A stretch of 64,000 nt of DNA, taken from contig NZ_PQVF01000012.1 of NCBI RefSeq assembly GCF_002920915.1, positions 62,287 through 126,286 of the forward strand, read 5' to 3'. Source of the DNA: Solitalea longa (GTDB taxonomy: Bacteria > Bacteroidota > Bacteroidia > Sphingobacteriales > Sphingobacteriaceae). Positions 18,864 through 49,482 of the stretch are shown here, in pieces. Every line of letters starts with the position of its first letter. The first letter of the stretch is position 1. A program made the translations under genes and the position numbers. The notes beneath the pieces were generated by a model, which saw only the letters and a program-made list of their open reading frames with translations, was not told where the DNA came from and searched no databases.

Positions 18864-18869
18864 GGAATA

Positions 18870-19210
18870 AAGTTAAAAGTTAGAAGGACAAAGGTAGAAG
18901 TTAGAAGAAGAATTTTAGAATTGGGATTTTGGATTTTAGAAGAAAGAAGGTAGAAAACTGTGAAACTCCGTGTTACTCTGTGGTTAATTAAAGTACAAAG
19001 TAAGAAGTACAAAATACAAGTTTAGAATGGGTGATTTTAGATTTTAGAAGAAGGCTGGGAGAATAACTGTGACACTCCGTGTAACTCTGTGGTTAAATAA
19101 AGTACAAAGTAAGAAGTACAATTTTAGAATGAAGATTTTGGATTTTAGAAATAGTAGTTCTGTAGTGAGTTTTTTTATACTTCTACAATCGTAAGTCTAA
19201 AATCTAACTT
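18870..19210. repeat. Noncoding tandem word repeat, 109-bp period, with an inverted end
   Basis: This intergenic stretch holds no gene. It is about two direct copies of a 109-bp unit: AACTGTGAAACTCCGTG begins at 18956 and AACTGTGACACTCCGTG at 19065. Each is followed by CTCTGTGGTTAA, AAAGTACAAAGTAAGAAGT, a TTTAGAATG word and GATTTT-GATTTTAGAA. A further partial copy precedes them. At the right end (about 19174-19208) the same words occur inverted (TTCTACAATCGTAAGTC, TAAAATCTAAC), so the whole can fold into a large imperfect hairpin. Identical words recur at 5561, 20185, 28503 and 49283. Confidence 0.75.
18889..18896 (-). promoter_or_regulatory. Predicted -7 box of mazG
   Basis: On the minus strand this reads TACCTTTG, a perfect TAnnTTTG match about 26 nt from the ATG. 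It is embedded in the first words (AAAGGTAGAAG) of the intergenic repeat region. Confidence 0.45.
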
Positions 19211-19593: not shown

Positions 19594-20205
19594 ATGCTTT
19601 CATTTTATGAACTAACTGATACGGAAGGCCTTGATTTTGAAAAGGCAATGGAGATTTATACAGAAGCCTTTCCGGCGCATGAGCGTCCTTCAATTGCTAT
19701 TATCAAAAACCGGATAAGATCAGGAGCAGAGCAGTTGATAATTGGTAAGCAGGGCGATGATGTAGGCCTAATGGCCTTGCTATGGAAACTTCAGGGTACA
19801 CGTTTTATTTTGCTTGATTTTTTGGCAACTGCTGCTACCTACCGAGGCACAGGTATTGGCGGCAAGTTCATGGAATTTATTAAGGATTGGATAATACACC
19901 AAAATGAAAACTTGCTGTTTGAAGTAGAACATCCTGATTTCGGCGAAAACACGGAGCAGCGAATAAAGCGAATAAGGTTTTATGACAAGTACGGAGCCTA
20001 TACTATCAAGGAGGTGATTTATTACTTACCGGATATGGAAGGAGGAGAGCCTAAAGAAATGCTTATCATGACCATTCCTGCCATTGATTTAGACCGTAAT
20101 GAGTTAAAGCAGGTAGTAAAAGCCATCTACGAACAACTATACGGACTTAATGAGGAGGATGAACCGTTTAAAAGGTTTTTAAGGAATTTAGATCTTAGAT
20201 TTTAG
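19594..20205 (+). CDS. GNAT family N-acetyltransferase
   Basis: A 203-aa GNAT-fold protein. The acetyl-CoA pyrophosphate-binding loop is YRGTGIGGK (about residues 87-95), preceded by the beta-4 strand FILLDFLAT and followed by a C-terminal Tyr-containing IRFYDKYGAY. The substrate is unknown. The last codons (NLDLRF-stop) are encoded by the left copy of a 22-bp inverted repeat (20185-20206), so a repeat appears to have replaced or extended the original 3' end. Confidence 0.82.
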   Translation: MLSFYELTDTEGLDFEKAMEIYTEAFPAHERPSIAIIKNRIRSGAEQLIIGKQGDDVGLMALLWKLQGTRFILLDFLATAATYRGTGIGGKFMEFIKDWIIHQNENLLFEVEHPDFGENTEQRIKRIRFYDKYGAYTIKEVIYYLPDMEGGEPKEMLIMTIPAIDLDRNELKQVVKAIYEQLYGLNEEDEPFKRFLRNLDLRF

Positions 20206-20663
20206 AGTTACGAACTGGTCGGTATTTAGAAGATGTTTCAATCATTTAGATTCCGTTTTGCTGAGTTTATAGAAGAAACAAAGATTGCCGTAAGTTCATT
20301 GGCTTCTTTCTTTAGTTCAGCCAGCTGAATTGGTTTTAAAATATTGGCTTCCTCCAATAATTCTAGCCAAAAAAGACATTCATCACTTTCTTCTTCAACA
20401 GTTTTGAGCTTATTAATGAAATCTTTGGATGATTTTGCTCTACAAGCAGATCGATAATTTGCTCCAACTGAGGTTCCTGATCTTAATAGTTGATTTCCTA
20501 AAACATTTGCAACCTGAGTATTGGGCAAGTGGTTTACCAAATTAATAATTCTTAGTCCAAAATGCTTGGTTCTGTTTTTCAATTCAATGGTGTTCATAGA
20601 TTGTTAGGTAGAACACTAAAGTAAAAATTCCCAAGCGATAATCTAAAATCGTAAATCTAAATT
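20185..20663. repeat. Inverted 9-4-9 repeat pair bracketing the four-helix-bundle gene
   Basis: The left copy (20185-20206) is AATTTAGAT, four bases, GATTTTAGA. The right copy (20642-20663) is its reverse complement, TCTAAAATC, GTAA, ATCTAAATT; only the 4-bp centres differ. The left copy contains the GNAT stop codon, and the right copy abuts the mnmD stop. Without the 435 bp between them, these would form one hairpin between two convergent genes, like those at 28503 and 49283. Confidence 0.75.
20238..20597 (-). CDS. Four-helix-bundle protein (23S rRNA IVP / TIGR02436 type)
   Basis: A 119-aa all-helical protein with the family signature NQLLRSGTSVGANYRSACRAKSSKDFINKL (read in parts) and ESDECLFWLELL. 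The family was first known from ORFs in intervening sequences of bacterial 23S rRNA genes. It includes the Avd accessory proteins of diversity-generating retroelements, which bind nucleic acid, but free-standing copies have no established function. No reverse transcriptase or rRNA is nearby. It sits in the loop of a word-repeat hairpin (20185/20663) with a near-consensus -7 box (CTAAAGTA at 20616-20623, minus), as a self-contained insertion would. Confidence 0.88.
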   Translation of the reverse strand: MNTIELKNRTKHFGLRIINLVNHLPNTQVANVLGNQLLRSGTSVGANYRSACRAKSSKDFINKLKTVEEESDECLFWLELLEEANILKPIQLAELKKEANELTAIFVSSINSAKRNLND

Positions 20664-21350
20664 CTACAATTTCTTGGCTCTCAGCATTTCCCGTTTTCCG
20701 GCTGCTCCTTTAGGTTTTTCGATGGTAAAGCCCAATGCTTTTAAGATCCTTTTAAGATTGCCGGTGATGCTGTAGGTGACAAATAATCCGCCAGGTTTTA
20801 AGAACGAGCAAACATGTTCAATGGTTTCTTTTGACCACATTTCGGGTTGAATAAGAGGGGCAAAAGCATCGTAATAAATAATATCGAAAATTGGCTCAAG
20901 GTGGGCTTCCATAACAGGTTTTTGCTCCATTTGAAGACGAGTCAATTCGCTGAGCTCAATGGGTTGTCCTTCAATTAAATCAGGGTACCTTGTCGAGTAT
21001 CGTTGCCATATTGCTTTGTTCGAGATAAATGGCTCAAAATCTATCTCATTGATCACATCGGGTTTCACCGGAAAGGCCTCTATGCCAACATAGTTCAGTT
21101 TTAATTTTTCTTTCTCGCAATAATCCGCAGTAACCAAAAAGTTAAGACCTGTTCCAAAACCAACCTCCAGAATGGTTATTTCTTCAAAATTGCTGATCGT
21201 TCTGAAATACATCAGTCCGGTTTCCAAAAAAACATGTTTAGCCTCTTGCAGTGCACCGTTTACCGAATGGTAAGTTTGCATCAGGTCCTGCTGTAAAAGG
21301 GTAAAACTTCCGTCGGCGGTTTTTAATAACTGAACGTTGCTGAATTGCAT
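20664..21350 (-). CDS. mnmD: tRNA mnm5s2U34 methyltransferase MnmD (DUF752)
   Basis: A 228-aa SAM-dependent methyltransferase equal to the N-terminal half of MnmC, in the stand-alone MnmD form usual in Bacteroidota. It has ILEVGFGTGLNFL (SAM binding, about 60-72), the conserved YYDAFAPLIQPEMWS and, near the end, GFTIEKPKGAAGKREMLRAKK. It would methylate the nm5s2U wobble base of tRNA to mnm5s2U. No FAD oxidoreductase half is present. The stop codon directly abuts the right copy of the inverted repeat. Confidence 0.9.
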   Translation of the reverse strand: MQFSNVQLLKTADGSFTLLQQDLMQTYHSVNGALQEAKHVFLETGLMYFRTISNFEEITILEVGFGTGLNFLVTADYCEKEKLKLNYVGIEAFPVKPDVINEIDFEPFISNKAIWQRYSTRYPDLIEGQPIELSELTRLQMEQKPVMEAHLEPIFDIIYYDAFAPLIQPEMWSKETIEHVCSFLKPGGLFVTYSITGNLKRILKALGFTIEKPKGAAGKREMLRAKKL

Positions 21351-26918: not shown

Positions 26919-27380
26919 ATGCAACAATTGCCACCATTAAACCTTCCGCCGTATCCTTTTCAGCTAAAAGAAGAAGGAGGGAGGCTTTTTATCTTTGATG
27001 AGATCCGCAAGAAGAATTTAGTGTTAACGCCTGAAGAATGGGTCCGTCAGCATTTTATTCAATACCTGATCAATCAAAAGAATTACCCTAAAGGCTTGAT
27101 CAATATAGAAGGTGGTTTAAAAGTGAATGAGCTGAGCAAACGGTCAGATATTTTGCTTTTTAATACCAATGCCGAAAAATATCTGTTGGTGGAATGTAAG
27201 GCCAGTTCGGTTAAATTAACCCAAAAGGCATTTGACCAATTAGCCCGATATAATACAACCCATAAAGCCAGGATCATAATTTTAACGAATGGTTTAGAAC
27301 ACTATTGCTGCGAAATTGACCATGAACTGAAGAACTACAAGTTTTTAGCAGAAGTACCAGATTATAGCAGTCAGCAGTAG
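26919..27380 (+). CDS. HSDR_N-domain protein (type I restriction R N-terminal-like nuclease fold)
   Basis: A 153-aa stand-alone HSDR_N_2 domain. The PD-(D/E)xK-like core is visible as RSDILLF followed by YLLVECKAS, then a helix with LTQKAFDQLARYN. In type I enzymes this domain cleaves DNA, but single-domain copies beside holA are common in Bacteroidota and no methylase or specificity gene is here, so this is not a restriction system. The last codons (SSQQ-stop) lie inside the left arm of a 12-bp hairpin (27368-27442). Confidence 0.83.
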   Translation: MQQLPPLNLPPYPFQLKEEGGRLFIFDEIRKKNLVLTPEEWVRQHFIQYLINQKNYPKGLINIEGGLKVNELSKRSDILLFNTNAEKYLLVECKASSVKLTQKAFDQLARYNTTHKARIIILTNGLEHYCCEIDHELKNYKFLAEVPDYSSQQ

Positions 27381-27442
27381 CCAGTTCCTAGTCGGCAGTC
27401 TCCAATAGCCAGTCTGGATTGTAGAATGAATACTGCTGACTG
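27368..27442. repeat. 12-bp perfect inverted repeat spanning the HSDR_N stop
   Basis: CAGTCAGCAGTA (27368-27379) and TACTGCTGACTG (27431-27442) are perfect complements. The space between holds further CAGT-type words (GTCGGCAGTC, CCAGTCTGG). The left arm includes the last codons and most of the TAG of the HSDR_N gene. It is part of the word-repeat hairpin set. Confidence 0.75.
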
Positions 27443-27464
27443 AGTACTGTTAACTGAAATTTCC

Positions 27465-28502: not shown

Positions 28503-28645
28503 AAGTTAGAAGTACAATTCCAATAAAGTTAGATTTATGAATTTAGAAGTACGAAAGAGTAAACAATTTACCAACTAGCCTGAACTACTATTTCTAAAAT
28601 CTAAAATCCTCAATCTGAAAATGTATTTTTTCCTTTGTACTTTAG
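28503..28645. repeat. Word-repeat region between convergent genes
   Basis: No gene. The left part carries AAAAGTTAGAAGTACAATTC and TTTAGAAGTACGAAAG. The right part carries their inverted counterparts CTAAAATCTAAAATCC and TTTGTACTTT. It can fold into a long imperfect hairpin and would act on transcripts from both sides. Same vocabulary as 18870-19210 and 49283-49482. Confidence 0.6.
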
Positions 28646-49282: not shown

Positions 49283-49482
49283 GTAAAGTACGAAGTTAGA
49301 AGTAAAATAAAGTACGAAGTTAGAAGTACAATTTTAGAAGTACAATTTTAGAAGTACGATGTAAAAAGTACCAAGTACGAATTGGGATTTTAGATGTTAG
49401 TAAAGCCTACAATCTAAAATCCCACCTCTAAAATCGTAAGTCTTATACTTTGTCCTTCGTACTTTGTCCTTTGTATTTTATT
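49283..49482. repeat. Long word-repeat hairpin between convergent genes
   Basis: No gene. The core is a perfect 13-bp inverted repeat TGGGATTTTAGAT (49383-49395) and ATCTAAAATCCCA (49412-49424) with a 16-nt loop. The left flank repeats AAAGTACGAAGTTAGAAGTA and AATTTTAGAAGTAC in direct copies; the right flank has inverted counterparts CTAAAATCGTAAG and CTTTGTCCTTCGTACTTTG. The whole 200 bp between the EVE and thioesterase stops is filled by these words. Confidence 0.78.

Follow-up and report, generated by a model that had tools for sequence, protein, structure and literature searches.

The window, by which we mean the whole stretch of 64,000 nucleotides of Solitalea longa that was analysed, contains a GNAT-like gene on the plus strand (19594-20205) and an mnmD gene for an MnmC2-type methyltransferase on the minus strand (20664-21350), and between these two flanking host genes lies a small gene on the minus strand (20238-20597) that encodes an IVP protein of 119 amino acids. 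The assignment of mnmD is solid (NCBIfam profile NF033855, 188.9 bits with a cut-off of 136), and that of the GNAT gene is marginal, with 26.6 bits for the Pfam profile PF13508 (cut-off 27) and 20.9 bits for PF00583 (cut-off 20.7). The IVP protein clearly matches both of its profiles, PF05635 with 63.6 bits (cut-off 33.8) and TIGR02436 with 88.4 bits (cut-off 24), and is modelled as a confident four-helix bundle (four helices, pLDDT 95.2). Among the solved structures the model comes closest to the S23-family structure 2rld_B (Z 18.9, rmsd 1.5, 111 residues aligned) and also resembles 2gsc (Z 16.1). The gene is enclosed by two arms of 23 nt, one on the GNAT side (left arm, 20184-20206, plus strand) and one on the mnmD side (right arm, 20642-20664, minus strand), which are complementary to each other at 87% (20 of 23) of their positions, are spaced by 435 nt and form the sole inverted repeat reported within 19800-21000. 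The GNAT stop codon TAG (20203-20205) lies within the left arm, and the right arm is abutted by the mnmD stop codon. Read on the mnmD strand, the arm words are TTGTAGA ATTTAGA TTTACGA TTTTAGA, the heptamers of the right arm thus ending in AG, AG, CG, and AG, and the left arm has four in-phase RG heptamers at 20183-20205. The initial annotation had given the word a 9-4-9 structure; the inverted words are indeed there, but they are better described as heptamers with a period of seven. In the predicted RNA fold 21 of the 23 right-arm bases are paired into the left arm, although the fold of the whole element reaches a z of only -1.90, which counts against reading it as one element. The outer limits of the whole proposed element, arm to arm, are put at 20183-20666 (minus strand) by analogy with the 23S insert of Azospirillum described below. 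The IVP gene is the single ORF between the arms and no recombinase is encoded by the element, which lies between GNAT and mnmD and not in 23S rRNA; Rfam at gathering thresholds had no match in the whole window.

Inverted heptamer arrays without a gene are also present in the window, at 2316-2384, 18864-19200, 27369-27455, 28503-28616, and 49283-49470, and they differ in their words; the arrays at 2316 and 27369 each have a five-unit arm. The GNAT-mnmD words had been said to recur as plain hairpins at other convergent gene pairs, which holds at 28503-28616 and 49283-49470, whereas the array at 18864-19200 lies between divergent genes and the further hairpins at 2316-2384 and 27369-27455 have other words.

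For a wider comparison, the best complementary match between the two 120-nt flanks of a gene was scored as z versus shuffles. The window IVP gene has a score of 20 and a z of 4.8, and in a second run a z of 4.3 with 1 of 200 shuffles equally good, so that the proposed position of an IVP gene between inverted words at this junction is borne out. The window genome has six further IVP genes, around which the exact window words form no flanking pairs; four of the six were testable, and three of these (L056, L058, L061, not L057) have a z above 3 with other words. The family set consists of 60 regions around IVP genes of the window's family, the window itself and region L023, and holds 68 IVP genes. 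Its regions were picked among the matches listed and are mostly high-scoring, and therefore weak or degraded IVPs are under-sampled; L059 and L060, which have no ATG-started IVP ORF by profile, were left out. A second, named set comprises the best 80 of 580 relatives among the candidates listed from a contig scan (Pedobacter, Mucilaginibacter, Algoriphagus, Hymenobacter, Chryseobacterium, other Bacteroidota, and single MAGs of Chlorobiota, Balneolaceae, and Ignavibacteriae); it partly repeats species of the family set. Here L126 and L175 were left out, again for want of an ATG-started IVP ORF, as were 2 of the 90 IVP ORFs due to a too short flank. In the family set 49 of the 68 IVP genes exceed a z of 3 (mean z 4.83) and in the named set 63 of 88 IVP ORFs, versus 9 of 404 and 5 of 128 genes that do not adjoin an IVP gene, respectively, as was predicted by the initial annotation. 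Genes adjoining an IVP gene exceed it in 9 of 128 and 15 of 151 cases, which makes 18 of 532 for all other genes of the family set. A significant stem within 120 nt is missing for 19 of the 68 and 25 of the 88 IVPs, and this counts against the element reading. It is scarcely credible that the arms are mere simple-sequence drift, that is, heptamer slippage and hairpin-templated copying with an IVP gene nearby by chance. Some bacteria are rich in heptamer repeats (PMC4692102; PMC4679880), but non-adjacent genes of the very same loci seldom have arms, only 4 of 147 other genes of at most 200 amino acids in the family set have a z above 3, and the coupling of words and proteins among close relatives (see below) speaks against drift as well.

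The arms are not confined to chromosomes of Bacteroidota. Plasmid-borne IVPs, for which 15 of the 41 records of one search and 8 of the 26 of another were used, exceed a z of 3 in 5 of 6, in 3 of 8 (L232-L239), and, with 160-nt flanks, in 7 of 8 cases (L284-L291), the sole miss in the latter set being its one Bacteroidota record. Their hosts are mostly Cyanobacteria, with additional cases in Chloroflexota and Treponema saccharophilum. The window subgroup is represented on plasmids of both Gloeocapsa and Chlorohelix (L285, L286) by IVP genes that are flanked by a DUF1156 gene and a Swt1-HEPN gene. A search of 50,697 phage records with one IVP query had no match; three relatives were found in viral contigs, all with a z above 3, and two of these are nearly identical in sequence. 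Exceptions to the general design are L284 and L289, with reversed polarity, and L287 and L023, whose arms fail to pair.

The pooled arms of 162 elements, 158 after removal of repeats, have a common design without a common sequence. Identity at a lag of 7 is 0.40 in both arms, in comparison to 0.27-0.29 at lags that are not multiples of seven and to 0.29 for control genes that do not adjoin an IVP gene. In the aligned heptamer NNNNNAG the last two positions are occupied by A and G with frequencies of 0.76 and 0.94, respectively, and in-phase RG runs of at least five units occur in 96 of 158 elements at period 7, but in only 0-4 at periods 4-6 and 8-11; after shuffling, such runs would be expected in about 1.5 of 158. 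Upstream arms have runs of exactly five units in 57 of 158 elements, of four in 17, and of six in 19. The peak at five appears in the family set (21 of 68 upstream and 21 of 68 downstream arms) as well as in the named set (34 and 36 of 84), and it is retained after clustering of the proteins at 60% identity, with 21 upstream and 27 downstream arms among the 69 clusters. Each arm of the window element has only four heptamers, one of them with CG instead of RG, which counts against the five-unit reading. The solved IVP relatives 2gsc and 2rld comprise five chains each, and S23p of Xanthomonas is a homopentamer of four-helix bundles (PMC4990558), so that five heptamers may meet five subunits. A fixed word or fixed terminal repeat was rejected, since 197 of 356 heptamers from 105 arms are distinct and the match between elements scores 10.9 versus 10.1 for shuffled sequences. 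Likewise, the arrays were considered as all-frame stop signals, but all three frames are closed in 52 of 113 arrays versus 198 of 565 shuffles, which is only a modest excess.

Within elements the complementarity of the arms amounts to 19.1, far above the value between elements. Together with the predicted pairing of the window arms, this would also fit a pure RNA-processing stem, in which the arms are kept only for the release of the IVP transcript by RNase III and are not read by the protein, and the 28-bp stem of the 23S IVS of Coxiella is known to be cut by RNase III (PMC4990558). However, such a stem leaves the period of seven, the RG core and the peak at five unexplained, and it does not explain why related proteins have words in common at different sites and in different phyla. 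We consider it unlikely.

The relation between words and proteins was analysed for 121 elements with a stem score of at least 14, using pairs without homologous neighbor genes. The word cosine falls from 0.59 for IVPs of 70-80% identity (n = 21) to 0.25 for those of 60-70% (n = 74) and is about 0.08 for pairs below 40% (n = 2677), hence the coupling is visible only above about 60% identity, where the pairs come from few clades. Over all non-homologous pairs a rank (Mantel) test is weak, with 26 of 500 permutations as high. Unrelated IVPs at one common junction have words no closer than others (cosine 0.063, n = 159), and the coupling is broken by the pairs L158/L173 (0.33), L162/L173 (0.20), and L172/L200 (0.04). 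For the window IVP the three best word matches among 173 belong to IVPs of Bernardetia, Gloeocapsa, and Chlorohelix that are 51-53% identical to it, and a GATTTTA-like word goes with the window IVP subgroup across three phyla (group test, p 0.025); the window word is little matched in L061, L288, L289, and the sister IVP of Solitalea genome G001 (cosine 0.079). As judged from these sequence comparisons, the arm words tend to be tied to the subgroup of the IVP protein and not to the site.

Occupied and empty junctions can be compared at two places. In G001, which belongs to the same genus, the GNAT-mnmD junction also has an IVP gene, which is 74-75% identical to that of the window, groups as its sister (support 0.80) and is oriented oppositely relative to its neighbors, with an IS-like insert beside it. 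This insert (L023, 2669-3793) separates the IVP gene from the mnmD-side arm and contains an ORF that by eye is transposase-like. In G002, again of the same genus, the GNAT-mnmD junction has about 57 nt between the gene matches and neither an IVP gene nor pairing words. In G003 (L025, 2311-2412) only a GNAT remnant is left beside mnmD, and this genome has no IVP match and 16 reverse-transcriptase matches. At the argC-argD junction, which was followed through 30 genomes of the family, an IVP gene is present in 19, and several IVP types can be told apart there by eye from their protein starts. Nine of the 11 IVP-free junctions have no heptamers, one has a remnant and one, in G002, a gene-less heptamer hairpin. 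Other palindromic stretches are seen by eye at argC-argD in L206, L208, L213, L225, and L231, where the IVP gene is absent. Because of these comparisons at both junctions, arms and gene appear mostly to come and go together, and the arms look like the element's own ends, unlike a pre-existing host hairpin.

The initial annotation had proposed the opposite order, with heptamer hairpins of the host existing first and IVP genes entering their loops as cassettes, and had expected an empty site with an intact hairpin in close relatives. Gene-less heptamer hairpins do exist in the window and at argC-argD in G002, and the Azospirillum target described below reads as a small hairpin. On the other hand, the empty GNAT-mnmD site in G002 has no such hairpin, most IVP-free argC-argD junctions have no heptamers, unrelated IVPs at one junction have no common word, and the Azospirillum target has no heptamer array. 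Furthermore, gene-less hairpins are rare, as a strict scan revealed five in about 800 kb of family genomes, including genomes in which no IVP was found, and their number does not correlate with that of IVPs over 21 genomes (rho -0.19, p 0.42). We consider the cassette form of the idea very improbable.

One plasmid IVP, L240 of Azospirillum lipoferum 4B, is encoded within a 23S rRNA gene, with RF02541 spanning the insert, and the arms of this IVS are 36 nt long, 86% complementary and have RG in phase five times on each. The likeness of the window gene to IVP insertions in 23S rRNA, already pointed out in the initial annotation, is supported here, since the arm-ORF-arm layout matches that of a true 23S rRNA IVS. 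Two further plasmids of this strain have 23S copies (L292, L293) that lack the IVS, so that L292/L293 and L240 form a natural before-and-after pair; L293 is identical to L240 over flanks of 597 and 591 nt and has 19 nt where L240 has the insert of 473 nt. At either end, the distance between heptamer arm and insert boundary is at most 3 nt. As far as a comparison of sequences can tell, this single pair places both boundaries of an IVS-type insertion at the arms. The 19 nt that were replaced in this one mapped insertion can be read as a small hairpin and contain no heptamer array; no target was duplicated, and the replacement hints at an RNA-level step.

Among 151 IVPs with both neighbors called (repeats included), 135 are in sense orientation with co-directional neighbors, 5 are antisense, and 11 lie between non-co-directional genes. 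By best NCBIfam match the neighbors include fadB-fadA, argC-argD, metH-metF, mreB, and murE-mraY, and further neighbors are ribonucleotide reductase genes (antisense) and CRISPR operons. The distance of the first RG from the upstream stop codon was taken for the 102 elements that have four or more units in a run and a sense upstream gene no more than 250 nt away, and this offset is 0 or +1 in 49 of them. TAG is the stop codon in 76 of 146 genes upstream of an IVP gene versus 140 of 585 others, so that the element seems to bring, or to aim at, a stop codon. The sense orientation, found in 135 of 140 co-directional settings, and the recurring sites in metabolic operons such as fadB-fadA, argC-argD, and metH-metF could also suggest that the IVP is a resident, non-mobile operon regulator that binds an NAG array in its own 5' leader. 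The NAG-type repeats recall the sites of TRAP, a ring protein that binds evenly spaced (G/U)AG repeats, but has 11 subunits and a shorter repeat period. Yet a resident regulator accords badly with the patchy presence at argC-argD (19 of 30), with differing IVP types at one junction, with antisense IVPs and with the same design inside 23S rRNA, and we regard it as most unlikely.

We consider it likely that the IVP gene and its arms together are one small, free-standing, IVS-like mobile element between protein genes, with a ring protein that would read the heptamer ends; both binding and movement are deduced. The differing IVP types at argC-argD and the opposite orientations of the window and G001 IVPs at one junction count toward mobility. 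Further points on the opposite side are the weak rank test, the little-shared word of the G001 sister IVP, the exceptions in polarity and pairing, the gene-less heptamer hairpins, the single mapped 23S case with its replaced 19 nt, and the mostly four-unit arrays of Xanthomonas. Each arm would be an array of NNNNNRG heptamers, mostly five, the second arm being roughly the reverse complement of the first, and a pentameric IVP ring would recognise its own array on single-stranded nucleic acid, with one heptamer per subunit. In transcripts the arms may pair as a stem whose loop contains the ORF, and RNase III may excise the element RNA from messages, as in rRNA. Because the window element has no recombinase, an outside activity would have to move it. 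Entry in sense orientation at the upstream gene's stop codon would spare the operon, and we propose that the element is tolerated because its entry is often at stop codons. More tentatively, and with less than even confidence, these could be recombinase-less transposable elements that have a heptamer code at their ends for the encoded pentamer ring to read, five heptamers for five subunits, and that spread, probably via RNA, through transcribed regions, where they would enter or replace hairpins or stop-codon sites; the 23S rRNA IVSs would then be a minority borne by rRNA. A reverse transcriptase in the same genome was considered as the mover and rejected as a need for carriage, since IVP-bearing genomes without PF00078 exist: the window genome (G000), G001, G002, and G028 have no PF00078 match and hold 7, 10, 5, and 14 IVP matches, respectively. 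In the family a reverse transcriptase is present in 34 of 70 genomes with and in 11 of 31 without IVP.

Structures of IVP proteins have been solved since 2006, and the excerpts of open-access literature examined give no function for them. The matches listed from the open-access literature, a scope that mostly leaves subscription papers outside, contain nothing that joins IVP genes to heptamer arms. An end code with a period of seven and mostly five units, common to free-standing elements and one 23S IVS, would be open to a direct and cheap binding test. It would moreover explain IVP genes inside metabolic, CRISPR, and other operons and would be a handle on the entry of intervening sequences into rRNA. 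TRAP is of use here as an analogy only, a ring protein with evenly spaced NAG motifs; binding by IVP is conjectured.

Several known systems resemble the proposed element in part. Unlike a DNA transposon or insertion sequence, the window element has no recombinase and IVP elements have no fixed terminal inverted repeat. The Avd proteins of diversity-generating retroelements (DGRs), whose relation to IVP is already known (PMC10053308), have the same fold as the window model, which aligns with 4dwl_C, Avd of the Bordetella phage DGR (Z 14.2, rmsd 1.7, 109 residues), and with 8ub8_C of the 8ub7 series (Z 14.3), but the window genome gave no match to the reverse transcriptase profile PF00078. IVP genes in CRISPR-cas loci have been listed among CRISPR-Cas-associated functions (PMC3936711), the excerpts of which do not mention flanking repeats; IVP genes between cas genes were also found here (L121, L232, L233, L289), but look like insertions. 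Heptamer repeats are known as GGGAATC in Xanthomonas and GGGGA(T/C)T in Nostoc (PMC4692102), and like the IVP arms they have a period of seven, contain G and are mostly intergenic. The Xanthomonas heptamers often form convergent inverted pairs, 70 in Xcc and 75 in Xac, and the GGGAATC arrays have mostly four units, with one word type per genome studied; the excerpts of that paper draw no connection of the Xanthomonas and Nostoc heptamers to IVP (PMC4692102). Xcc, the host of GGGAATC repeats, also encodes the IVP of 2gsc. The closest system is that of the 23S rRNA IVSs, which are already known to have arms and an S23/IVP ORF (PMC4990558), although the excerpts of this source make no mention of a heptamer design. 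In Coxiella, Leptospira, and Azospirillum these IVSs have the same protein family, the ORF in the loop and complementary terminal arms, of 28 bp in Coxiella and 36 nt in Azospirillum, with five plus five heptamers in Azospirillum lipoferum, whereas the window element and its relatives are situated between protein genes, outside rRNA.
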